The notes beneath the pieces were generated by a model. It made no database searches. It worked only from the letters and a program-made list of their open reading frames with translations, and was not told where the DNA came from. Source: Mycobacterium sp. UM_CSW (lineage in GTDB: Bacteria > Actinomycetota > Actinomycetes > Mycobacteriales > Mycobacteriaceae). Taken from it: DNA of 64,000 nucleotides. The translations under genes were made by a program, and so were the position numbers. Positions 14,064-35,168 of the stretch are shown here, piece after piece. The first letter of the stretch is position 1. The number at the start of each line of letters is the position of its first letter. The stretch is taken from contig NZ_AUWQ01000055.1 in NCBI RefSeq assembly GCF_000455205.1, positions 95,698 to 159,697 of the forward strand, written 5' to 3'.

Positions 14064-15023
14064 TTAAGCGTGAGGGTAGGCCGGCGGCAGCGGCATCCCG
14101 AGCGCGGCCATGACGGCGCGCGCCCGCGTCGGGAAGTCGGTGATGATGCCGTCTACGCCGTATCCGATCTGGGCGCGCATGGCGTCGGCGTCGTTGACCG
14201 TCCACGGAATCACCTCGAGCCCCAACGAATGCGCGTGATCGACGTAGGGCTTTCCGGTGACCAGCGCATAGTTTGGCGAGACGGCGTTGGCGCCGACCAG
14301 CAGCGCCCCGAGCATCGGGTCGCCGACGGCGCCGGCGTCGACGCCGTTCAGCCACGGCGAGCCCGGCACCCAGGTCTCCTCGTTGTACAAGGCCACCAAC
14401 GGGATTGACGGCTCGGCCCGGTGCACCATGGGCAGGGTTCGCCAGTCGAAGCTCTGGATCTCCACGCGATCGACCTTGCGGCCGGCGCGAACCGCGGCCA
14501 GTATCACGTCGACGAATTCCTGCGGTTCGGCCGACGAGCCCGGGTGGTCGGCTTCGACCTTGGTTTCGACGTTGTAGCGCACGCCCGCCCGGTACGAGTC
14601 GGCGAGCGCGAAGACCTCCGGCAGCGTCGCGATCTTGTTGCCGCGCACCACCTCCGCGTCGGGGAACTCGGCGAGCCGCTTGCCGCAATCGAGCGTGCGG
14701 ATCTGCACCAGGGTGAGCTCGTGCACCAACTTACCGACGTAGGGGTAAGCCGGGTCGCCGGCGAACGCCGGCCCGGTGTCGGAGCACTTATCCGCCTGGA
14801 TCGTCGGGTCGTGCCACACCAGCGGCTGGCTGTCCTTGGACAGGACGATGTCCAGTTCCAGTGTGCTGACGCCAAGTTCGAGCGATTTGGCGAATGCCCG
14901 CAGCGATTCCTCGGTCGTCTCGCCCCGCCCGCCGCGGTGTGCCTGCAGGTCGAATTTGGGCGCTTCCGCGGAAGCCGGCCCGGCAAGCAGCACCGTCAGC
15001 GAAAGCAGCACCACGGCCCACAT
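14064..15023 (-). CDS. Secreted glycerophosphodiester phosphodiesterase family protein
   Basis: The 319-residue protein has a signal peptide (residues 1-19, ending GPASA) and then a GDPD TIM barrel. The catalytic HRG motif is at His29-Arg30, metal ligands Glu56 and Asp58 sit in TLELDIV, and His71 is in VWHDPT. The family hydrolyses glycerophosphodiesters to glycerol-3-phosphate and an alcohol, here outside the cytoplasmic membrane. It is related to but distinct from M. tuberculosis GlpQ1. It lies tail to tail with the cyclase gene, 5 bp apart, and a terminator separates it from the rlmB operon upstream. Confidence 0.88.
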   Translation of the reverse strand: MWAVVLLSLTVLLAGPASAEAPKFDLQAHRGGRGETTEESLRAFAKSLELGVSTLELDIVLSKDSQPLVWHDPTIQADKCSDTGPAFAGDPAYPYVGKLVHELTLVQIRTLDCGKRLAEFPDAEVVRGNKIATLPEVFALADSYRAGVRYNVETKVEADHPGSSAEPQEFVDVILAAVRAGRKVDRVEIQSFDWRTLPMVHRAEPSIPLVALYNEETWVPGSPWLNGVDAGAVGDPMLGALLVGANAVSPNYALVTGKPYVDHAHSLGLEVIPWTVNDADAMRAQIGYGVDGIITDFPTRARAVMAALGMPLPPAYPHA

Positions 15024-15035
15024 TCGCGAGCAGAC

Positions 15036-15075
15036 GCAAAAGCCCCCAAATCTTCGGCGTGTCGGGGGCTTTTGC
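15036..15075 (-). terminator. Intrinsic terminator after the carD-ispD-ispF-cysS-rlmB block
   Basis: A perfect 12-bp stem (GCAAAAGCCCCC at 15036-15047 with GGGGGCTTTTGC at 15064-15075) encloses a 16-nt loop. It lies 43 bp beyond the rlmB stop and just before the glycerophosphodiesterase start, so it insulates the two units. The T-run is inside the stem rather than after it. Confidence 0.75.
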
Positions 15076-15101
15076 TGGGGGCACCTCCCGCTTGCGGGGG
15101 A
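15076..15101. repeat. Short palindromic interspersed repeat, copy 1
   Basis: This 26-bp element has TGGGGG on the left and the imperfect hairpin CCTCCCGCTTGCGGGGGA on the right. A second copy at 49585-49610 matches 24 of 26 bases. Here it is intergenic and abuts the terminator; the other copy is inside a coding region. Confidence 0.6.
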
Positions 15102-15118
15102 CTGCTCGGCCAGAGGAC

Positions 15119-16048
15119 TCAGCCCCTGCGCTGGCGGGCGATTTCGGCCAACACCACCCCGGCGGCCACCGAGGCGTTCAGCGATTCGGTTCGGCCCGCC
15201 ATGGGAATCGAGACGACCTGGTCACAGGTCTGCCGCACCAACCGGGACAGCCCCTTGCCCTCCGAGCCGACGACCACCACCAGCGGGTCGGTGCCGTCCA
15301 GGTCGTCGAGCGTGGTGTCGCCGTCGGCGTCCAGCCCGATGACGCGCAACCCGCCGTCGGCCCAACCCTTAAGCGCCCGAGTCAGATTCGGTGCCCGCGC
15401 CACCCGCAGCCGCGCCGCCGCCCCGGCGCTGGTGCGCCAGGCCACCGCCGTCACCGACGCCGATCGCCGCTGCGGGATCAGCACGCCGTGACCGCCGAAC
15501 GCCGCGACCGAGCGAACAATGGCGCCGAGGTTGCGGGGATCGGAGATGTTGTCCAGCGCGACCAGCAGCGCGGGCGGCGATCCGGCCGCGGCCGCGAGCA
15601 GGTCGTCCGGGTGGGCGTAGTCGTACGGCGGCACCTGCAGCGCGATGCCCTGATGCAGGTGATTCGTGGTCATCCGGTCCAGGTCGGTGCGCGGCACCTC
15701 GAGGATCGCGATGCCCAGATCCGCTGCGCGGGAAACGGATTCGGTGAGTCGCTCGTCGGCCTCGGTGCCCAGCGCCACGTAGAGCGCGGTCGCGGGGACG
15801 CCGGCGCGCAGGCACTCCAGCACCGGGTTGCGGCCCAGCACCGTTTCGGTCTCATCGGTGCGCTTGGTGGGTCGGCGCGGCTGCGACTGGGCGCGCCTGG
15901 CGGCGGGATGGTTGGGGCGCAGGTGCGCCGGCGGGGTGGGACCGCGGCCCTCCAGCCCGCGGCGGCGCTGGCCGCCCGAGCCGACGGTCGGGCCCTTCTT
16001 GGTGCCGGATTTGCGTACCGCCCCGCGGCGCCGCGAGTTGCCGGCCAT
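15119..16048 (-). CDS. rlmB: 23S rRNA (guanosine-2'-O)-methyltransferase, TrmH/SPOUT family
   Basis: The 309-residue protein is a SpoU/TrmH-family methyltransferase that methylates a ribose 2'-OH in rRNA. Residues 1-70 are a basic, disordered tail (many Arg, Gly and Pro). A substrate-binding domain starts at [11 protein letters not shown], and the knotted SPOUT domain has the three family motifs [28 protein letters not shown] and [13 protein letters not shown]. It equals Rv3579c by context. The stop of cysS and the start of this gene are adjacent (16049 and 16048), so they are co-transcribed. RlmB is the best specific call; another SpoU target cannot be excluded. Confidence 0.9.
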
Positions 16049-17452
<1,404 letters not shown>

Positions 17453-25112: not shown

Positions 25113-26591
25113 TCAGAGATCATTGCCCGCGTACGACTGATTGAAGCTTTTGTTGACCAGCGGGAAGTCGGGGACGATGGTGTCGGCCATCGCGACGGGC
25201 AGCGCGGGCCAGTTGAACCAGGACGGGTCGACGATCTTCGCGCGCGTGATCCGGTCGGCGGCAGCGGTTTCGACGCGGTGCACGATGGTGCCGCGCCAGC
25301 CTTCGACGATGCCGATGCCACTTCGGGGCCCGTGTGAGGCGGGCGCGGCCTCGACGTATTCGATTGGGCCACTGTGCGACTCGATCAGATGACACGCCAG
25401 CTCGGCGCTCGCCGCGAACTCGTCACGCCGCACCGTGTAGCGGGCCAGCACGTCACCCGCGGTGACCCCGACCTCGCTGACGGGCAGCGCGGTTGTGGGA
25501 TGTTCGATTCGCGCGTCGGTGCGCATACCGCTGGCGCGCGCCACATAGCCCAGACACCCGAGTGCCTCGGCGTCTTCCTTGCCCAGGACGGCCGTCCCGG
25601 CGAAGCGGTCGTACACCACGGCGTTGTGCAGCGTCAGCTCAGCGATCTCGGCGACGTCCGCGGCAATCCGCCGCAACGCGTTGGCATCCGGCAGCGCCCG
25701 CAGCGCGACCGCGCCCGGGCGGATCGCGCCGCGCAGCAGCCGATGTCCGGTGACGGACGCGTTGAGTCGCAACAGCTCCTCGCGCACGCGTTGCGCGTGC
25801 GCGTGGGCGATGCCGAAGCCGACGTCGTTGGCCAGCGCGCCCAGGTCCGCGGAGTGGTTGTACAGCCGTTCGAGTTCGACGAGCAGCGCCCGCAGTCGGT
25901 GCGCCTCGTCGGGAAGTTCAATCCCGAGCGCATCCTCGACGGCGAGGCAGTGGGCGAGCGCGTGCGCGGCGGAGGTGTCACCGCTGGCGCGTTCGGCCAA
26001 GTCGACCGCGCCGCCGCTTGGGCGGCCCTCGAAGAGCTTTTCCAGGCCCCGGTGGACGAACCACAGTCGGGCCTTGAGCCGCAGCACGGTTTCGCCGGCG
26101 ACAGAGAAGCGGAAGTGACCGGGCTCGATCAACCCCGCGTGCACGGGACCCACCGGGATCTCGTACACCCCCGGCCCCTCGACAGTGACGAACGGAAAAT
26201 GGCCGCTGCCATCGAATTTGGGGGCGGTGGGCGCGGCGCTGCGCATCGGATACCACTCCTCCGGCCAGTGGGCGTGGCGCACCAGCCGTCGCGGCTTGGG
26301 ATGCCCGAGCGGCCGGATTCCGTACAGGTCCGCTATCTCGCGCTCGAACCGGCCGGCCACAAACGACAGATACGCCAGCGATCTGATCTCCGGATTATCC
26401 TTCGGGACAACGCATTCCAATTCGACGCGGCGATCGGGCCAGCCGGCCAGGAAGAGATAGACGACGCGAAAGGCGCCGCCGTCGTCGTGGGCGGCCATCA
26501 GGGCCAAACGAAAGCCCCTGTCCAGCAGCATTTCCGTCGTCTCCGCCAGATTGGGTTGGGATACCCGGTGACGCACCCAGTCACGGCTCAT
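25113..26591 (-). CDS. hycE: HycE-like large subunit lacking Ni-Fe ligands (Ehr-type)
   Basis: The 492-residue protein fuses a NuoC-like 30-kDa domain (residues 1-120, with REIADLYGIRPLGHP) to a NuoD/hydrogenase large-subunit domain. In true [NiFe] hydrogenases four Cys bind the metals in RxCGxC and DPCxxC. Here these read ERASGDTSAAH (Ser203, Thr206) and DPSWFNW (Ser457, Asn460), so no Ni-Fe site can form. It ends without the C-terminal cleavage peptide of hydrogenases. It is the equivalent of Rv0087, often named formate hydrogenase. The start overlaps the hycQ stop (ATGA). Likely role: the quinone- or substrate-facing part of an energy-converting complex; the substrate is unknown. Confidence 0.9.
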   Translation of the reverse strand: MSRDWVRHRVSQPNLAETTEMLLDRGFRLALMAAHDDGGAFRVVYLFLAGWPDRRVELECVVPKDNPEIRSLAYLSFVAGRFEREIADLYGIRPLGHPKPRRLVRHAHWPEEWYPMRSAAPTAPKFDGSGHFPFVTVEGPGVYEIPVGPVHAGLIEPGHFRFSVAGETVLRLKARLWFVHRGLEKLFEGRPSGGAVDLAERASGDTSAAHALAHCLAVEDALGIELPDEAHRLRALLVELERLYNHSADLGALANDVGFGIAHAHAQRVREELLRLNASVTGHRLLRGAIRPGAVALRALPDANALRRIAADVAEIAELTLHNAVVYDRFAGTAVLGKEDAEALGCLGYVARASGMRTDARIEHPTTALPVSEVGVTAGDVLARYTVRRDEFAASAELACHLIESHSGPIEYVEAAPASHGPRSGIGIVEGWRGTIVHRVETAAADRITRAKIVDPSWFNWPALPVAMADTIVPDFPLVNKSFNQSYAGNDL

Positions 26592-28057
26592 CGCGGGGCC
26601 CCGACCTCGCTGGCGGCGGTGGTGAACAAGCCGGTGAGCGGGCCCGCGGTGACACCGAGCGCCGCCGACGCGGCGACCCCGACGACCAACGCCGCCGCGA
26701 CCGTCCGCGGCACCGTGATCGCCGGCGCGTCAGCGCGGCTGTCCCCCAACAGGACTCGGCCGAAGTTGCGCGCCAGCGCGGCGAAGGCGATCGCAACCAA
26801 CAGCAGGCCCGCCCCAATGGCCCACGTGAGCCTGGCATCGGCGAGCGAGCGCACAATGGCCAACTCGCTGGCGAACATCGCGAACGGCGGCAGCCCGAGC
26901 AGCACGACCACACCGGCCGCGAGCGCTACACCGACCAGACGGGAGCGCCGCAACACGGCGCTCATGTCGGCGATCGCGGTGGAGCGGTGCGCGGCCTGCA
27001 GCTGGCCGCTCGCCAGGAAGAGGACCGTCTTGCCGATTCCGTGGGCCAGCACATGCAGCAGCAGCGCGGCGACGGCCAGCGTGGTTCCCGCGGCCGCGGC
27101 GATCGCGATCAGGCCCATGTTCTCCATCGAGGAGTAGGCGAGCATGCGCTTGAGGTCGGGGGTCACCGTCAGCATCAGGGCCGCCACCACCAGGGTGGCC
27201 AGCCCGATCACCAGTAGCCAGGACCGCATGAAGGTGGGCCCGGTGGCCGCGTCGATGATCGGCTTGAGTCGGATCAGCACCGAGAAGGCCACCGACAGCA
27301 GCACCCCGCTCATCAGCGCGGAAACCGGTGCCGGGGCCTGGCTGTGCGCGTCGGCCAACCAGGTGTGGAACGGAAACAGCCCGACCTTCGCGCCGTAGCC
27401 GATGAGCAGCAGTCCGCCCGCGAGCCGGGCGATGTCGGGATTCAGCGTGCCCGCATGCGCCGCCAGCACGTCGAGGTTCAGCGCGGCCGCGGCCGGCGCG
27501 CCGGCGTGCTCGGCCGCGTAATACAACAGCACCGTGCCGAGGAAGGCGACCGCGATTCCTACCGAGCAGATCACCACGTACTTCCACGTCGCCTCCAGCG
27601 CGCCACGGGTGCGGCGGTGCCCGACCAGGAAGGCGGTGATGACGGTGGTGGCTTCGACGGCGATCCAGATGACCCCGATGTTGTTGGCGCACACCGCCAC
27701 CACCATCGCCGCCAGGAAGGCCGACGTCAGCGCGCCGTAGATTCGGGCGCCGCGCGCGTCGGTGTGGCCGTGCGCGAGCTCGGTGTCGAGGTAGCCGATG
27801 CTTGCCCAGGTAGCCAGTGCGGCAACGATTCCGATGACGATCAGCATGGTGACGGTGAGCGCGTCGACGCGCAGCAATCCGCCCAGCGCGAACTGCGTCC
27901 CCGATCCGACCCGCAACCCCAGCGCCGCACCGCATCCGAGCACCGTCATCGCCGACAAGGCGATCAGCGTCGCCGTCGCCCGGCGCCAGCCGGCGATCAG
28001 TGTGGCGACCGACGCGCCGACCGGCGCGAGGATCGCGGTGAGCAGCAGAGCGGTCAT
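26588..28057 (-). CDS. hycQ: HycQ, NuoN/HyfF-like proton-pumping membrane subunit
   Basis: The 489-residue protein has about 13-14 membrane helices and is a Mrp/NuoN-type antiporter-like subunit. The key lysine motif GYGAKVGLFPFHTWLADAH and its partner VSALMSGVLL are kept, as is the second channel lysine region DLKRMLAYSSMENMG. These features mark a working proton channel. The ATG at 28057 overlaps the hycP stop; longer in-frame sequence upstream lies in hycP and is noise. Equivalent of Rv0086. Confidence 0.92.
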   Translation of the reverse strand: MTALLLTAILAPVGASVATLIAGWRRATATLIALSAMTVLGCGAALGLRVGSGTQFALGGLLRVDALTVTMLIVIGIVAALATWASIGYLDTELAHGHTDARGARIYGALTSAFLAAMVVAVCANNIGVIWIAVEATTVITAFLVGHRRTRGALEATWKYVVICSVGIAVAFLGTVLLYYAAEHAGAPAAAALNLDVLAAHAGTLNPDIARLAGGLLLIGYGAKVGLFPFHTWLADAHSQAPAPVSALMSGVLLSVAFSVLIRLKPIIDAATGPTFMRSWLLVIGLATLVVAALMLTVTPDLKRMLAYSSMENMGLIAIAAAAGTTLAVAALLLHVLAHGIGKTVLFLASGQLQAAHRSTAIADMSAVLRRSRLVGVALAAGVVVLLGLPPFAMFASELAIVRSLADARLTWAIGAGLLLVAIAFAALARNFGRVLLGDSRADAPAITVPRTVAAALVVGVAASAALGVTAGPLTGLFTTAASEVGAPR

Positions 28058-28719
28058 CAGTCGTGCAGCTCCTGCAGCCGGTCCAGGTCGGCACCCCCGA
28101 ACGCACGAGACAGCCGACCGGTCAGCACGCCGATCACGATGACCGCGAACAGCACGTCCAGCGACGCGCCGAGCTCGACGATCATGGGCACCCCGGCCGT
28201 GAGCAGGAACGCGGTGGCGGCGATTCCGTTGTCCAGCATCAGGAATCCCGCCGCCTGCGAGACCGCATGGCGCCGTGTCACCATCACGAGCAGCGCGATG
28301 AGGACGACCGCGGTGGCGGCCGGGACGGCAGTCGTCGTGGCCGCCGGTTGCAAATTCACCAGCGGCCGGGTGGCCGCGAAGGCGGCCAGCGTCAGCGCGG
28401 CAGTTATCAGCAGTGACGTGGCGGTGTTCACGAGCGGGGTGGCTTCGCGATGCGACTGCGGTCCGGACCCGACGGCGCGGGACAGCAGCCGCGGCAACAC
28501 CACGGCGCGCAACACGAAAACCGCGGCGCCGACACCGATCAGCGCGCCGTCGCCGTCGTACATTCCGCGCAGCACGGGGATGGCCGCCAGCGCTGCGCCC
28601 TGCATCGCCAGCAGGCGGACGATGGCGATCAGGTCGCGGCGCCACACGATCAGCACCGCGCCCAGGAGCAGTCCGCCGGCGGCGAGGTCGACGAGAACCG
28701 CGAAGTTATCGGGCGTCAT
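28057..28719 (-). CDS. hycP: HycP, HyfE-like membrane subunit
   Basis: The 220-residue protein has about six or seven membrane helices and resembles HyfE/NuoK-like subunits. Features include a short polar loop with [18 protein letters not shown] and the C-terminal [20 protein letters not shown], which carries an acidic residue in a helix as NuoK does. The ATG at 28719 overlaps the hycD stop (ATGA), which settles the start. Equivalent of Rv0085. It contributes to the membrane arm of the complex. Confidence 0.88.
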
Positions 28720-29675
28720 GCCGGCACCGCGAAGAAGTTGGCGGCGACCACCGCGAGCAACGCCAGCAGGAAAGACCCGGAAAGCAACTCCGGGACCCGG
28801 AACAGCCGCAGCTTCGCGACGAAGACCTCGACGGTGGCCAGCAGCCCTGCGAGCACAGCGACCTTGGCCACCACCGCCGCCAGGCCGGCGAGCACGCCCA
28901 GCGCGGTGGGCTGGGTGCCGGCGATGCCCCACGGCGCGAACAGGTTCGCCAGCAGCGCCAAGAGCACGGTGAGTCGCATGCCGGCGGCCCACTCGACCAG
29001 CGCCAGCCGCGGCCCGGCGTATTCGAGGATCATCGCCTCGTGGACCATCGTCAGCTCGAGGTGGGTCGCCGGATTGTCCACCGGCAGCCGGCCGGTCTCG
29101 GCGACGATGACGATCACCAGCGCGGCGAACGCCAGCACCGCGGCCAGCGACACCACCTGCCCGGGATGGTCGATCGTATGTTCCACCAGGGCACCGAGAT
29201 TGGCCGACCCCGCTGGCATCGACAGGGCGAAGACCGCCAGCAGGATGGTGGGCTCGACCAGCGCGGCGATGGTGATCTCGCGGCTGGCGCCCATGCCACC
29301 GAACGAGGTGCTGGTGTCAATGCCGGCCAGGGTCAGCGCGACTGTGCCCACGAACAGCAGGCCGACGACGGCGAACAAGTCGGCGCTAGCGTCCAGCGGC
29401 GAGCCGGTGGCGACTAGCGGCGCGATCGCGGCGATCAGCAACGCGGACCCGGCGACGACCGCCGGCGCGGCCGCGAACACCACCGTCGTGCCGCGCGGCG
29501 TGACCTGTTGCTTGCCAAGCTGTTTGACGATGTCCCGCCAGGGCTGCAGGAGGCCGCCCCCGACGCGGCCCTCCCAGCGCGCCCGTACCTGGCGGGTGAG
29601 GCCGACCACCAGCGGTGCCCCGGCCATCACGCCGCCGATCTGCGCGGCGCCCGCGACGTAGGACCAGACGTTCAT
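28716..29675 (-). CDS. hycD: HycD, NuoH-like membrane subunit
   Basis: The 319-residue protein has about eight membrane helices and matches HycD/HyfC/NuoH, which couples the soluble arm to the membrane arm. The conserved acidic loop reads [19 protein letters not shown] (19 residues), followed by [18 protein letters not shown]. An intact Glu-rich loop suggests retained energy coupling. The start overlaps the preceding stop by 4 bp. Equivalent of Rv0084. Confidence 0.93.
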
Positions 29676-31648
29676 CGGGCGACCACCAACACGGTCAGGA
29701 CGCCCAGGGCACCGTACGCCAGATACAGGTGCACACTGCCGGTGTGGGCGCGCCGTACCAACACCGCCGCCGACGAAATCGCTTGGAGCACCGGCATGTA
29801 GAAACGCTCCTCGATCGCATCGCCGATGCTGCTGCGATAGGTGATCTTGTCGGCCAGGTACCGCGACCCGGCGTTGGGCACGACTTCGATGTTGGTGTCC
29901 GGGCGCAAGACGTCATCGAAGACGCGCTGCAGCGGCTCGGCGAACGACGTGGCGGTGTACTGCATGCGTGCCGTGAGATCCTCCGCGCCACAGGCCCATA
30001 GCGGCAACGTGGCGGGTTGGGGGCGCTGCGTCCGGCGCCACCGAGCCAGGACGGCGACGGTTAGCGCGGCCACGACGACACCGGCGGCGATCACGCCGGG
30101 AGCGATCGATCCCTGCAGGCCCGGGAGTCGCACCACGGCGCCGAGGTCGGTGAATTGCTCCGCCCGCGCCGCCGGCAGCGCGGCGACCGTCCGGCGCAGT
30201 GCGGGCGCGACGACCGAGGGCGCCACAGCGAGCACCACACAGGCGACCCCTGCGACGGCCATCCCCGCCAGCATGCTGCCCGGCGCTTCGCTGGCCTCGG
30301 CGGCCCGCGCCGAGCGCGGCCGGGCCAGGAATCCGATCCCGAACGCCTTGACCATCGCCGCCACGCCCAGGCCCGTAGTGAGCGCGACGGCGCCCACCGC
30401 CAGCGGCGTGGTCAGCGCCAACACCGTCACGTGTTGCGGGGCCGTGTGAATCAGCGACTGGACCAGCAGCCACTCGCTGACGAAGCCGGCACCCAGCGGC
30501 AGCCCGCACGCCCCGAGCGCCGCCACCCCGAACAGCGTGGTGGTCGCCGGCATCCGGCGGGCCAGACCGCCCAGCCGGTCGAGGTCGCGCAGCCCGGTCG
30601 CCGCCAGCACCGACCCCGCGGCCAGGAACCCGAGGCTCTTGAACGCCGCGTGCGCGATCAGGTGCAGCATGGCCGCGACCGCGGCGATCGTCGCCGGCCC
30701 GTTCGCACCGGCGGCAGCGAACAGGGTGGCCGCACCCAGCGCCAGCGCGATCAACCCGAGGTTCTCGGTGGTCGAATAGGCAAGCAGCCGTTTGAGATCC
30801 GTGGCCACCGAGGCCTGCACCACGCCGTAGAGCGCCGATACCCCGCCGACCAGCATCAGGGTGAGACCCCACCAGCGCGGACCCGGGCCGAGCAGCTGCA
30901 TGTCGATACGGCAGATGCCGTAGACACCGAGGTTGACCATCGCCGCGCTCATCAGAGCCGACACCGGGCTGGGCGCCTCGGGATGGGCGCGCGGCAACCA
31001 GGCGTGCAGCGGCACCAGCCCGGCCTTGGACCCGAATCCCGCCACCGTCAAGACGAATACCGCGGTGCGCGCGCCCTGCGGTATGCGGTGCAGGTCGGCG
31101 AACCGGTCGGCGCCGCCGGCCGCGGACAGCACCATGAGCCCGACCAGGATCGCGACGAACCCCAACTGGGTCATCACCGCGTACGCCAATGCGGCCGAAC
31201 GAACCTGTGGGCGAGTGTGTTCGGCCAGCACCAACACCAGCGACGCGAGCGCCATCAGTTCCCATGCCAACAGGAAGCTGGTGACCGACGCCGCCGCCGG
31301 TACCAGCAGCATCACCGCGACGAACAGCGGCAACACCGCCAGCGCCGTCCCGCCGAGATGCTCGCGGCGCGCATAACCGATCGTGTACGGCCCGACGACG
31401 ACGGCGACCGCCCCAACGAGCGCGATGAAGAACCCGCCGAGCGGGTCGAGGCCCAGCTGCACCCCCGACAGCGGCAGCAACCATCCGATGCGCACGTCGC
31501 GCGCCGAACCGAACATCCCGATCGTGCCCGCCCATACCCCGCCGGCCCCGAGCAGTGACGTCAGCGCACCCGCGAGTGCGGGACGGAAGTCCCTGCGGGC
31601 CAAGAGGTTTGGCGCGGCCACCGGACGCGTCGCCAGTTCCGCGGTCAC
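29672..31648 (-). CDS. HyfB/HycC-like proton-translocating membrane subunit
   Basis: The 658-residue protein has about 15-16 membrane helices and belongs to the NuoL/NuoM/HyfB family. The pump lysine motif GFGSKAGLVPLHAWLPRAH and VSALMSAAMVNLGVYG are conserved, with DLKRLLAYSTTENLG as the second channel signature. A C-terminal soluble stretch (about residues 600-645) contains LWACGAEDLTARMQYTA, common in HyfB proteins. The start overlaps the NuoB-like gene stop. Equivalent of Rv0083. With HycQ, the complex would have two antiporter-like modules. Confidence 0.93.
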   Translation of the reverse strand: MTAELATRPVAAPNLLARRDFRPALAGALTSLLGAGGVWAGTIGMFGSARDVRIGWLLPLSGVQLGLDPLGGFFIALVGAVAVVVGPYTIGYARREHLGGTALAVLPLFVAVMLLVPAAASVTSFLLAWELMALASLVLVLAEHTRPQVRSAALAYAVMTQLGFVAILVGLMVLSAAGGADRFADLHRIPQGARTAVFVLTVAGFGSKAGLVPLHAWLPRAHPEAPSPVSALMSAAMVNLGVYGICRIDMQLLGPGPRWWGLTLMLVGGVSALYGVVQASVATDLKRLLAYSTTENLGLIALALGAATLFAAAGANGPATIAAVAAMLHLIAHAAFKSLGFLAAGSVLAATGLRDLDRLGGLARRMPATTTLFGVAALGACGLPLGAGFVSEWLLVQSLIHTAPQHVTVLALTTPLAVGAVALTTGLGVAAMVKAFGIGFLARPRSARAAEASEAPGSMLAGMAVAGVACVVLAVAPSVVAPALRRTVAALPAARAEQFTDLGAVVRLPGLQGSIAPGVIAAGVVVAALTVAVLARWRRTQRPQPATLPLWACGAEDLTARMQYTATSFAEPLQRVFDDVLRPDTNIEVVPNAGSRYLADKITYRSSIGDAIEERFYMPVLQAISSAAVLVRRAHTGSVHLYLAYGALGVLTVLVVAR

Positions 31649-32124
31649 TTGCCGGTCACCGATCTGAGCGCCTCGACGATCTGACCCGGGGTCGGCGGGC
31701 AGCCCGGAATCTCGACGTCGACGGGCACCAGCTCACCCACCGCGCCGACCACGCCGTACGCGTTCGCAAAAACCCCGCGGTTCAGCGCGCAGTCCCCGCA
31801 TGCGATCACCCGGCGCGGCAGCGGGGTGGCTTCGAGCGTCGCGGCCAACGGGCCCGCCATGTTGCGCGTCACGACGCCGGTCACCAGCAGCGCGTCGGCG
31901 TGGCGCGGGGAGGCCACCAACCGCGCACCAAACCGCTCGGCGTCGTAGACCGGTCCGAACGCCCCGGCGATCTCCACCTCGCATCCGTTGCAGGAACCCG
32001 CGTCGACGTGGCGGATCTGAAGCGAACCACGCACCCCGGCAAGCGGTTTCACCACCGGTCGCGGAGCGGGTGTAGCGGGTTCGGCGATCCGGCCGACCCG
32101 GAACGCTTTGCGGATCCAGCCCAT
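31645..32124 (-). CDS. HycG/NuoB-like iron-sulfur subunit
   Basis: The 159-residue subunit keeps a full proximal [4Fe-4S] site: Cys45 and Cys48 (GSCNGCE), Cys112 (GDCA) and Cys142 (PGCPPTP); Cys109 is extra. So electrons can still reach the large subunit although that lacks Ni-Fe. Equivalent of Rv0082. It lies 3 bp from the ArsR gene stop and overlaps the next gene. No ferredoxin-like (HycB/HycF/NuoI) partner follows, so the electron donor must be encoded elsewhere or the site is fed directly. Confidence 0.93.
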   Translation of the reverse strand: MGWIRKAFRVGRIAEPATPAPRPVVKPLAGVRGSLQIRHVDAGSCNGCEVEIAGAFGPVYDAERFGARLVASPRHADALLVTGVVTRNMAGPLAATLEATPLPRRVIACGDCALNRGVFANAYGVVGAVGELVPVDVEIPGCPPTPGQIVEALRSVTGK

Positions 32125-32127
32125 GCG

Positions 32128-32463
32128 CTACCCCGCACCGCCGGCGCGCAGGTCCTCCAACACCGCCACGCGGTCGCTGAGCACCCCGGTGAGAACCTTG
32201 CGCGCAACCAACAGCAGCTCGGCGATGTCCGGCGAGGCGATCGAATAGATCATTGTGTTGCCGTCCCGGTGCGCGTCGACCACGCCCGCGCGGCGCAAAA
32301 CGCCCAGCTGCTGCGACAGGTTCGACGACTCCAGGCCCACCTCGGGCAGCAGTTCGGCGACAGACTTATCCCCGGTGACGAGGAGCTCGAGAACCCTGAT
32401 CCGCGCCGGGTGTCCCAATGTCTTGAAGAACTCGGCCTTGACCTTGTACAGCGGCACCGACAC
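32128..32463 (-). CDS. ArsR-family transcriptional regulator (Rv0081-like)
   Basis: The 111-residue protein is a winged-helix ArsR/SmtB regulator. The recognition helix region reads GLESSNLSQQLGVLRRAGVV. The metal-binding ELCVCDL motif is absent, so a metal is not the obvious signal. In M. tuberculosis Rv0081 is a hypoxia-linked hub that controls this same cluster. The GTG start has a good site (AGGAGAGC). It heads the operon, and the AT-rich palindrome upstream is a plausible autoregulatory operator. Confidence 0.93.
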   Translation of the reverse strand: MSVPLYKVKAEFFKTLGHPARIRVLELLVTGDKSVAELLPEVGLESSNLSQQLGVLRRAGVVDAHRDGNTMIYSIASPDIAELLLVARKVLTGVLSDRVAVLEDLRAGGAG

Positions 32464-32489: not shown

Positions 32490-32515
32490 TCCTATATTCG
32501 AATGATTGAAGAATT
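32490..32515. promoter_or_regulatory. AT-rich palindromic operator/promoter of the hyc-like operon
   Basis: This island of low GC stands out from its surroundings and lies 27-52 bp upstream of the ArsR gene. ATTCGAAT at 32496-32503 is a perfect 8-bp palindrome, and TTC/GAA half sites continue on both sides (GATTGAAGAA). ArsR proteins bind such imperfect AT-rich inverted repeats. Binding by this regulator is inference. Confidence 0.5.
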
Positions 32516-32689
32516 TATCAAATTGTGCCGCGATCCGCACCGCGGGGTCCGGCTTCGGGCCCCGTCCGGGAGTGGGACGGCGAGCCGGAAGTGCCGGGCG
32601 TTATCCCACAAGCCCCTTCCCGCGCAACGCGACACGCCGCTCGGTCCGCGTTCCACGTCAGACTCATATCCGCGTCATACCCTGCCGAT

Positions 32690-33478
32690 GTGCCCAGCGA
32701 GGAGGCCGGCCAGGGATCCCGCTTGCCGCCGGTGTCCCGGCGCGCGGTGCTCGGCGGCCTGAGCCTGCTGCCCCTGGCCGCCGCCATGGGGGGCGCCGTG
32801 CCCGTCGCGTCGGCCGACCCGGGCTACCGCTTCCTGACCCAGCACCAGGCCGCGGTGCTCGACGCCGCCACCCGCCGCCTGATCCCCGGGCCGCAGGACT
32901 GCCCGGTCGAGTTCGGTCCCGGGGCGCACGAGGCGAACGTTGTCAACTACCTGGACCGGATGCTGTCGGTCTTCGACGTCACGCCCGCCGACGTGCACGC
33001 CGGCGGGCCGTGGAGCAATCGCGCCGGCGGCTCGCAGGACTACATGGCCACCTTCGTGCCGCTCAACCGCGCCCAGGCCTACGCGTGGCAGCAGCGCCTG
33101 ACGCAGCTGCGCGACCAATACAGCAGCGGCATCGCGTTACTCGACCAGCAGGCCGGCGGCGACTTCACCGCGATCCCGGGGGTGAAGCAAGACCTCATCC
33201 TGGCTCACGGTCCGGCGGCGACGTTCGCCGGCGTGCTGTTCGGTCACACCATCGAGGCGATGTACAGCGTCCCCGAGTACGGCGGCAACGCGAACCTGGT
33301 GGGCTGGAAGGACATCAAGTACCCCGGGGACTCGCAGCCGCGCGGATACACCCCCGCCGAGGTGGAGGCGGTTCAGTGGGACGTGGTCGTCCTCAGCGAC
33401 ATCATCAACCGCCTGCGCCGCGGTGGCTGGGAACAGGTCATCGGCAAACTGGGCGGAAGGGGCGGCGTGAGTGCCTAA
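32690..33478 (+). CDS. Tat-exported gluconate 2-dehydrogenase subunit 3-like protein
   Basis: The 262-residue protein starts with a twin-arginine signal (SRRAVLGGLSLLPLAAAM, cleavage near ASA-DPG) and then matches the gluconate 2-dehydrogenase subunit 3 family, helper subunits of FAD dehydrogenases. I choose the GTG at 32690: TACCCT lies six nt upstream (leaderless), and the Tat signal begins shortly after. A longer in-frame ORF back to 32525 looks non-coding. The stop overlaps the start of the GMC oxidoreductase gene. By known analogues, the small subunit carries the folded catalytic partner through the Tat pore. Confidence 0.85.
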   Translation: MPSEEAGQGSRLPPVSRRAVLGGLSLLPLAAAMGGAVPVASADPGYRFLTQHQAAVLDAATRRLIPGPQDCPVEFGPGAHEANVVNYLDRMLSVFDVTPADVHAGGPWSNRAGGSQDYMATFVPLNRAQAYAWQQRLTQLRDQYSSGIALLDQQAGGDFTAIPGVKQDLILAHGPAATFAGVLFGHTIEAMYSVPEYGGNANLVGWKDIKYPGDSQPRGYTPAEVEAVQWDVVVLSDIINRLRRGGWEQVIGKLGGRGGVSA

Positions 33479-35168
33479 GGCGGTCATCGTCGGCTCCGGC
33501 GCCGGCGGGTCGACGGTGGCGATGGAACTCGCCGAAAACGGTTGGGATGTGGTGATATTCGAGAAGGGATCGAATTACTTCACCAACCTGGATGGCACCG
33601 GTCCGCTCGGGACGACATTCGCCAACGACGAACTCAAGTCGCTGTACCGCTACTTCGAGCAGCCGGACCCGCTCGCCTACCCGCGCACCTATCGGCACAA
33701 CGCCTCCCAGGCCGCCGGCTACGTCGGCCCGGTCAACGAGCTTCCGGTGACCGTCGGCGGCGGAACCGTGCACTGGGACGCCAAGGTGCCGCGGTTCTGG
33801 GACATCGACTTCAAGGGGCTGTCGATGCTCGGCCCGCAACCGGGCGCGGACGTGCAGGACTGGCCGTTCGAATACAGCGAGATCGCACCGTATTACGACA
33901 TCGTCGAGGTGCTGCTCGGGACGCAGGGCGACGTCGGGACGATTCCCGCGCTCTCGTTGAAGCACGCGCCGCGCTCGCGGCAATATCCGATGCCGCCCGG
34001 ACCGCAGCAGCGCTCGTCGACGCTGATCGCCAAGGGGGCCAAGCGAATCGGGCTTCATCCGTATCCGTTCCCGACCGCGATCAATTCGGTCGAGTACGAC
34101 GGCCGCCCGGCGTGCAACAACTGCGGTTTCTGCAGCAACTACGGTTGCCCGATCTCGGCCCGGGTGGGCGCGCTCGCCCCGCTGCGGCTGGCGCTGCGGA
34201 CCGGGCGGGCGCAGTTACGTCCCGAAACGACCGTCACCAAGGTGAATTTCGCCGGCCGGCGGGCCACCGGCGTCTCCTATCTCGACCCGCGGGGCAGCCC
34301 CGGCGGGGAAAGCGCGGACCTGGTGGTGCTCGCCGCGTCGGCGATCGAGACCGCGCGCCTGGCGCTGCTGTCCGGCCTGCCCGACGCCAGCGGGCGGATC
34401 GGCGCGCGGCTGATGTTCCACAACTTCGTCGACGGGTTCGGCATCTACCTCGACCAGCGAGTGCACGCCTACCGCGGCCGCTCGATCACGCAGTGCATGG
34501 AGGATTTCTGCGACCCCAACTTCCCCGGGGCCCGACTCGCGGCGAAGCTGGCCGGGCTGCCCTACATCCGCGGCGGCCTGTGCGAACTCGGCGGCAGCCA
34601 GGACCCGATCACCGAGGGCAAGTTCTACCAGGAGATCCTCGGATTCCTGCCCGGGGTGCAGCTGTTCGGCAGCCCGTTCAAGGACCTGATGCGCGCCTCG
34701 CTGCTGCGCGACCGGCTCGCCGGCGTGAACTTCATCGGCACCGATCTGCCGTACCTGACCAACAACGTCACCCTCGACCCGACGGTCACGGACCTCAACG
34801 GCCAACCGGTGGCTCGCGTGACCTGGGCGCCGGGCAGGCACGAGGCGGTGGCACAGACGTTCTACCTGGTGCCCATCACCGCGATGATGGCGGCGGCCGG
34901 CGCGCAGCTGTTCGCCGCCGTCCCGGACGGCCTGGAGCGAAAGTTGGGCGGCGGCACGCCGCCGAACACCAAGCACGTCATGGGCGGGATGCAGATGGGC
35001 GTGTCCCCGGCGACCAGCGTCGTCGACCCCAACGGGCGAATGCACCAGATGGACAACGTTTTTGTCGCCGACGGCAGCGTGTTCGTCACGTCCGGTTGCC
35101 AGAACCCGACCAACACGCTCATGGCGGTGGCGCTGCGCACCGCGCGCGGGATCACCGGCCGGCGGTGA
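33471..35168 (+). CDS. GMC-family FAD oxidoreductase
   Basis: The 565-residue protein has the FAD-binding Rossmann motif VIVGSGAGGSTVAMELAENG and FEKG, then the GMC core. It ends with the active-site region (HVMGGMQMG, and a C-terminal CQNPTNTLMAVALR). A cysteine cluster, CNNCGFCSNYGCP near residue 205, matches iron-sulfur-bearing FAD dehydrogenases rather than cytosolic GMC oxidases. It has no signal peptide, so it probably rides out with the Tat-tagged partner encoded just upstream (8-bp overlap). The sugar or alcohol substrate is unknown. The cytochrome subunit of the three-part enzymes is not nearby. Confidence 0.88.
   Translation: MPKAVIVGSGAGGSTVAMELAENGWDVVIFEKGSNYFTNLDGTGPLGTTFANDELKSLYRYFEQPDPLAYPRTYRHNASQAAGYVGPVNELPVTVGGGTVHWDAKVPRFWDIDFKGLSMLGPQPGADVQDWPFEYSEIAPYYDIVEVLLGTQGDVGTIPALSLKHAPRSRQYPMPPGPQQRSSTLIAKGAKRIGLHPYPFPTAINSVEYDGRPACNNCGFCSNYGCPISARVGALAPLRLALRTGRAQLRPETTVTKVNFAGRRATGVSYLDPRGSPGGESADLVVLAASAIETARLALLSGLPDASGRIGARLMFHNFVDGFGIYLDQRVHAYRGRSITQCMEDFCDPNFPGARLAAKLAGLPYIRGGLCELGGSQDPITEGKFYQEILGFLPGVQLFGSPFKDLMRASLLRDRLAGVNFIGTDLPYLTNNVTLDPTVTDLNGQPVARVTWAPGRHEAVAQTFYLVPITAMMAAAGAQLFAAVPDGLERKLGGGTPPNTKHVMGGMQMGVSPATSVVDPNGRMHQMDNVFVADGSVFVTSGCQNPTNTLMAVALRTARGITGRR

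Follow-up and report, generated by a model that had tools for sequence, protein, structure and literature searches.

The stretch analysed here, referred to as the window, comprises 64 kb of the 6.39-Mb draft genome of Mycobacterium sp. UM_CSW, and it carries at 25113-32463 seven minus-strand genes whose products match the expected families, an ArsR-family regulator followed by six subunits of a complex resembling formate hydrogenlyase (Table 1). All six subunit genes are open and uninterrupted, and the nearest copies of the operon are mycobacterial, e.g., in Mycobacterium alsense and M. palustre. The original prediction described a six-subunit proton-pumping complex without an electron-input subunit; the genes lie where it placed them, and no electron conduit was found in the 64 kb. 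Below, L-numbers denote sampled loci of relatives and G-numbers sampled genomes.

Table 1. Genes and features of the operon, with the residues discussed in the text.
Feature	Position	Strand	Remarks
HycE/EhrL-like large subunit, NuoC and NuoD fused, 492 aa	25113..26591	-	Ni-Fe cysteines replaced
HyfF-like antiporter subunit	26588..28060	-	E136, K225, K304, K344, E399
HyfE-like (hydrogenase 4 membrane subunit) small membrane subunit	28057..28716	-	NF008556, E 9e-21, below curated cut-off
HycD/NuoH-like membrane anchor	28716..29675	-	E133, E141, E193, H205, E207, E213
HyfB/NuoL-like antiporter subunit	29672..31648	-	E130, K208, K286, K337, E392, K434
HycG/NuoB-like small subunit	31645..32124	-	C45, C48, C112, C142 for one [4Fe-4S] cluster
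ArsR-family regulator without cysteine	32128..32463	-	sole widely recurring neighbour type, 41/99 loci (lower bound)
Operator-like motif TGATAAATTCTTCAAT upstream of the ArsR regulator	32490..32520	-	close matches in L055, L080, L081, L056; role inferred

All four Ni-Fe cysteines are replaced in the large subunit HycE of the window (S203, T206, S486, and G489), neither the L1 nor the L2 CxxC motif of group 4 [NiFe] hydrogenases is present, and the position of the canopy aspartate is occupied by N484. The original prediction was right that the coupling residues are intact and that no standard donor is linked, but it overlooked this loss of the catalytic site. Among 89 sampled HycE relatives, 88 have no cysteine at any covered Ni-Fe ligand site and 69 share the S-T/S-S-G plus N484 pattern, in a sample that leans to the clade of the window because a pattern at the former L2 motif was among the grounds on which relatives were picked. 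After the loss of the ligands, the former Ni-Fe cavity is polar and strongly kept. The C-terminal extension for the maturation protease is also missing: L492, the last residue, aligns with R537 of E. coli HycE, which continues to 569, and the window protein thus stops at the end of mature E. coli HycE, as placed by what we take to be the maturation cleavage site. The complex I quinone-site residues Nqo4 H38 and Y87 align with I155 and G204. As a separate observation, a Brocadia copy (L154, 9001-10428) keeps CxxC at both Ni-Fe sites in the same C-terminal NKSF context, as does an actinobacterial sister group (L038, L040, L043-L045); these may be intermediates or Ni-Fe enzymes of an unusual kind.

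The energy-converting hydrogenase-related (Ehr) complexes combine group-4-like subunits that lack Ni-Fe ligands with antiporter-like and NuoH-, NuoB-, and NuoC/D-like subunits, and judged by this architecture and by its ligand loss the window complex is one of them. Copies from Nitrospira, Sulfobacillus, Candidate Phyla Radiation (CPR) bacteria, and Geobacter are in print. Ehr complexes have been presented as group-4-like, without the Ni-Fe CxxC motifs and with unknown function (PMC4378227, PMC10284858, PMC12342949, PMC7304191), and the device cannot be called undescribed, as had been proposed. Subunit names appear in PMC7894505, and Ehr in other lineages in PMC6349859 and PMC7304191.

A search of the 64 kb with E. 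coli HypA-F (HypF as a cut piece), HycB, HycF, HycH, HycI, and HydN gave a best E value of 0.26, and no CxxCxxCxxxC motif occurs in its six frames. Ten further long frames of the window include no member of the molybdopterin oxidoreductase family (frames shorter than 520 aa outside 20-37 kb were partly scanned). The predicted lack of ferredoxin, formate dehydrogenase, and maturation genes in the window is borne out by these searches. Likewise, no NuoI-type or HycB/HycF-type conduit was found at the locus within the 64 kb; NuoI and two HypD copies are encoded on other contigs of the host genome. We then compared the neighbourhoods of 99 loci by clustering open reading frames, using a simple caller on many related genera and some short contigs. 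Among 20 of the 21 neighbour clusters that recur in at least 4 loci, those whose representatives were profile-scanned, there was no ferredoxin or formate dehydrogenase, a co-occurrence that the original prediction had named as the mark of a standard formate hydrogenlyase. The formate dehydrogenase profile TIGR01591 matched all 45 carrier genomes at E 0.001, with a canonical enzyme over the cut-off in 7. Formate hydrogenlyase was rejected because the Ni-Fe ligands are lost and no input or maturation genes were found in the window. That the complex is an ordinary formate hydrogenlyase or hydrogenase, the annotation given to the tubercle bacillus orthologue, is hardly conceivable: its overall similarity and the best PDB match (7z0s_E) fit such an enzyme, whereas all four Ni-Fe cysteines are gone, HycB, HycF, HycI, and Hyp are not found in the window, and a HypD match is missing in 35 of 71 carrier genomes (18/45 plus 17/26), many of which are drafts.

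The pump, in contrast to the catalytic site, is preserved. Both antiporter subunits contain all the pump residues listed in Table 1, including the lysines that were originally predicted, and their lysine and glutamate sites, together with the HycD glutamates, correspond to those of E. coli Hyf or Hyc. K337 (77/77), K344 (83/83), and HycD E141 (79/79) are near-invariant among relatives, and HycD E133 is less kept (60/79). The acidic loop of HycD, also described as intact, is so only in part: the five glutamates of Table 1 are kept, but the E. coli loop glutamates E199 and E201 are A203 and H205 in the window, as among the relatives. Alignment disclosed no loss of pump residues in the window or in relatives with few cluster cysteines, the kind of loss that would speak against a working pump.

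Among known systems, the complex resembles the E. coli formate hydrogenlyases FHL-1 and FHL-2, with homologous HycC/HyfB, HycD, HycE, HycG, HyfE, and HyfF and with the pump and E-channel residues, but its locus has no HycB, HycF, or FdhF, its large subunit has no Ni-Fe cysteine, and it ends where mature HycE ends. It shares NuoB, NuoC, NuoD, and NuoH, antiporter-type subunits, and the fold of subunit D with complex I, from which it differs in having no NuoE, NuoF, NuoG, or NuoI at the locus, CxxC rather than tandem cysteines at the cluster, and neither quinone residue. The antiporter subunits can be aligned with MrpA/MrpD-type chains of the Mrp antiporters, which lack the HycD/HycE/HycG arm.

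The small subunit HycG of the window has all four ligands of its [4Fe-4S] cluster, as had been noted, and its ligand state (CCCC) is found in 63 of 73 sampled relatives. Degraded states are TCDD, TEDD, SEGD, and TEGD in Patescibacteria, TCDD in one actinobacterial family, and ACAS or GCAS in Agromyces-type Microbacteriaceae. In the Agromyces family the gene occurs in 8 of 249 genomes, the fourth cysteine being gone in 8/8 and a single ligand cysteine remaining in 3/8. The phylum of L143, which is Patescibacteria since L143 is a Daviesbacteria locus, gave 10 matches in 285 genomes: four TCDD copies, three without a ligand cysteine (TEDD, SEGD, TEGD), one DADN copy of another group, and two four-cysteine copies of another type. 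Nineteen genomes of an actinobacterial order contributed six TCDD copies alongside other types of Ehr and complex I. The 16 window-type loci with at most one ligand cysteine show no stop in any subunit found, and the 15 of them with a membrane arm all have the pump residues of the window in both antiporter subunits; L211 is truncated, and in Microbacteriaceae a histidine replaces HycD E133. At 43 HycG positions conserved in 68 four-cysteine rows, the 14 cluster-less rows differ mainly at the ligand sites, D41, P58, and D136. L061, L074, and L210 (DDDA, DDDS, DADN), which are other Ehr groups on long branches, stand outside the main counts. Published Ehr accounts describe the loss of Ni-Fe ligands; loss of small-subunit [4Fe-4S] ligands is absent from the portions of their text that were available and from the literature matches listed, supplements (including Fig S6 of the CPR paper) aside, which is not proof of absence. 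What is new here is that the HycG ligands have decayed in each of two distinct lineages, leaving at most one of the four.

Cryobacterium-type copies have three cluster cysteines, and such rows (CCCS/CCCN) were kept out of the cluster-less count because the membrane-bound sulfane-sulfur reductase MBS shows that three cysteines can hold a cluster. This enzyme is itself a model for the window complex, with the cluster as catalyst. According to PMC7684303, MBS also lacks the full set of Ni-Fe ligands and uses its proximal cluster, which has three cysteines as in the Cryobacterium-type copies; it retains, however, two of the four Ni-Fe cysteines and a ferredoxin-type subunit, MbsN, neither of which was found here, where no Ni-Fe cysteine and four cluster cysteines are present. 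As cluster-less relatives could not perform sulfane-sulfur reduction either, an MBS-like function seems very improbable. Two further HycG variants were noted. L131 (PCCC) has adjacent cysteines (PNCC) as in complex I N2 and no CxxC; it was scored as intact in the 70-row NuoI count and as changed in the 93-row tree. In L223 (G012:C46, the same gene as L061), of another Ehr group in the family of the window, HycG is fused to a ferredoxin-like domain, and neither its own ligand set (DDDA) nor that of the ferredoxin cysteines is complete.

A careful tree of 55 of the 93 rows, from which 38 rows including the long or open L208 and L209 were dropped, recovered each degraded group as one clade at 100/100 and rejected a joint clade (approximately unbiased test, p = 1e-34), so the ligands decayed at least twice. 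The two degraded lineages are Patescibacteria with a nested actinobacterial family, and Agromyces-type Microbacteriaceae. The fewest ligand-state changes were 5 on the quick tree of 93 rows, 2 on the careful tree of 55, and 3 across 70 scored rows. All trees were built only from the homologues gathered here, and Nitrospira rows fall inside the HycE tree. In a 15-row subtree the chosen outgroup did not form one side of a branch, and both the window and L209 were long, the latter being placed among intact rows; for these reasons only its starred fork was used, in which the four actinobacterial degraded rows group with L143 at 99/99.

The ratio of nonsynonymous to synonymous substitution rates (dN/dS) was 0.03-0.20 in cluster-less copies (36 values from six pairs, three Agromyces-type and three of the actinobacterial TCDD type), 0.07-0.23 between the window and its near relatives (18 values), and 0.01-0.30 for three-cysteine rows (18 values). 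Saturated dS values were dropped (21/24 in Patescibacteria pairs, 5 in Nitrospira pairs). Where dS was measurable, all six genes look to be under purifying selection. A decaying relic is scarcely credible on these values and with six open genes, even though the operon is patchy within the genus, occurring in 3 of 10 genomes drawn (own included). An internal stop was seen once in HycD, in L119.

Because selection has been kept with almost no redox ligand, redox coupling is unlikely to be the livelihood of the cluster-less copies. We tentatively favour, at slightly less than an even chance, the reading that the window complex is an Ehr complex, a hydrogenase-like arm plus a pump, whose core function would be redox-independent ion translocation with the cluster as a gate or optional entry. 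With a little more reserve, we suggest that the family may be a machine of the complex I superfamily that does without redox chemistry, the arm acting as the gate and the window cluster as a sensor or an optional entry for electrons, perhaps from NuoI, and that the Patescibacteria and Agromyces-type copies may run without a redox cofactor. In the proposed mechanism, a formate-hydrogenlyase-like membrane pump and peripheral arm, with the Ni-Fe site rebuilt into a polar cavity, would move ions (protons, or cations in exchange for protons) through the two antiporter-like channels. Gating would come from events in that cavity (H151, the SGD[T/S] loop, H246, E391, R433, D475, N484, S486, and the C-terminal GNDL), relayed onward along the HycD glutamate path, and the remaining [4Fe-4S] cluster of the window complex would be a gate sensitive to redox state or to oxygen or nitric oxide, or a place where electrons can optionally enter, and not the main engine. 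The respiratory or reverse-electron-flow device first suggested is unproved, and relatives without iron-sulfur ligands weaken the case for it.

Several observations weigh against a redox-independent core. The window complex and 63/73 relatives retain all four cluster cysteines, so electrons may matter there, and we infer a redox-free core for the window's own, cluster-bearing complex from its relatives. C48 is retained in 11/14 cluster-less HycG rows, and the Asp or Glu residues at the other ligand sites could bind another metal. Patescibacteria pairs were mostly dS-saturated, with 3/24 values measurable (0.04-0.12), and the leaning of the HycE sample has to be kept in mind. Redox genes do occur nearby in the 99 loci: 2-oxoacid dehydrogenase E1 in 5 (4 of them Cryobacterium), short-chain dehydrogenase in 5, cytochrome P450 in 5, and cytochrome oxidase subunit I in 4. 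To our knowledge, no transport activity is known for an Ehr-type complex. The strongest signal to the contrary is that a NuoI/HycF-like protein is encoded in the genomes of 50/50 scored intact-ligand rows, as would be expected if it were the entry for electrons.

This last association underlies the main alternative, a redox-driven pump, in which a ferredoxin-type carrier or a NuoI-bearing complex I module would dock on HycG and feed electrons to the single cluster. An acceptor, quinone or other, would then be reduced within the rebuilt cavity, and copies in hosts without NuoI would lose the cluster. Besides the common retention of the four cysteines, this alternative would account for the degraded rows, of which 16 out of 20 come from genomes without the NuoI/HycF-like protein; the remaining 4 belong to the actinobacterial family grouped with L143, which may have received the gene in a degraded state, and eight matches from seven genomes score as NuoI above the NCBIfam cut-off. 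The pattern amounts, however, to only two independent contrasts, for which the sign test gives a median p of 0.5, G012 and G365, whose DDDA/DDDS copies belong to another Ehr group outside the NuoI count, do have NuoI/HycF-like matches, the quinone residues are absent, and no linked ferredoxin was found in the scanned neighbour clusters. The L205 genome was left unscored (weak match, E 1e-6, in a frame with a stop), the NuoI match of the intact genome G742 reaches only E 1e-6, and many genomes are drafts. The two contrasts suit either reading, that electrons enter via NuoI where it is present or that both traits follow lineage. We consider borrowed electron input rather unlikely. Non-redox chemistry in the former Ni-Fe cavity, such as hydration or hydrolysis of a small molecule coupled to ion flow, would suit the conserved polar cavity, yet it lacks a known substrate, an enzyme among the widely recurring neighbours, and a recognised catalytic motif, and we regard it as improbable.

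No neighbour other than the ArsR regulator is widespread. Other recurring neighbours are an ABC ATPase (9 loci), PEP carboxykinase, a response regulator, and a family-less protein (6 each), a histidine kinase, YjdM, and PNPase (5 each, as is 2-oxoacid dehydrogenase E1 with its two subunits), and mycobacterial flank genes; decayed-ligand loci have almost no gene in common outside the operon. The GTP-type PEP carboxykinase gene lies at most 6 genes from the operon in L057, L059, L090, L091, L092, and L118, and the gene for YjdM (PhnA-type zinc ribbon) is near it in L059, L075, L076, L148, L150, and L157, in Actinomycetota and Pseudomonadota. A plasmid search returned 92 records with HycE relatives, true hydrogenases included (e.g., E. 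coli hycE and hyfG). Plasmids of Rhodococcus, Burkholderia, Methylovirgula, and Methylocalor carry the six genes as a cassette that has no ferredoxin-type subunit. Genes near the plasmid copies include ctaD in L075, flavin and xanthine-dehydrogenase-type genes in L077, and an acyl-CoA dehydrogenase gene in L079; they are neither inside the operon nor shared between plasmids. On the Methylovirgula plasmid (L077, 2543-9105) an ATP synthase operon directly adjoins the Ehr cassette.

In the window, L055, L080, and L081, the operon is flanked by mutY on one side and by an alpha/beta hydrolase gene and mhuD on the other. Genes for a gluconate-2-dehydrogenase-subunit-3-like protein and a GMC oxidoreductase (window 32525-35165), divergent from the adjoining operon, occupy this interval in the same order in L055 and are absent from the matching site in L080 and L081. 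The M. palustre contig L081 contains a second, inverted mutY-HycE copy of equal identity (14189-16640), perhaps an assembly artefact. We take the operon to be the orthologue of M. tuberculosis Rv0082-Rv0087 and, with the ArsR regulator, to have the gene set and order of Rv0081-Rv0087, presumably at a different chromosomal place, judging by synteny. PMC6901956 and PMC2799521 link Rv0081-Rv0087 to hypoxia and DosR regulation and call it a putative hydrogenase, a reading at odds with the ligand loss seen in the window copy.

Together, these copies form a natural series from hydrogenase, through Ni-Fe-less Ehr complexes with a cluster, to copies with at most one cluster ligand and an unchanged pump. 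If the low-ligand copies still move ions, then in the complex I superfamily the machinery for coupling would be separable from electron transfer. How the arm drives the pump, a long-standing question, would then become directly testable, and the formate hydrogenlyase label on the mycobacterial copies would be corrected.

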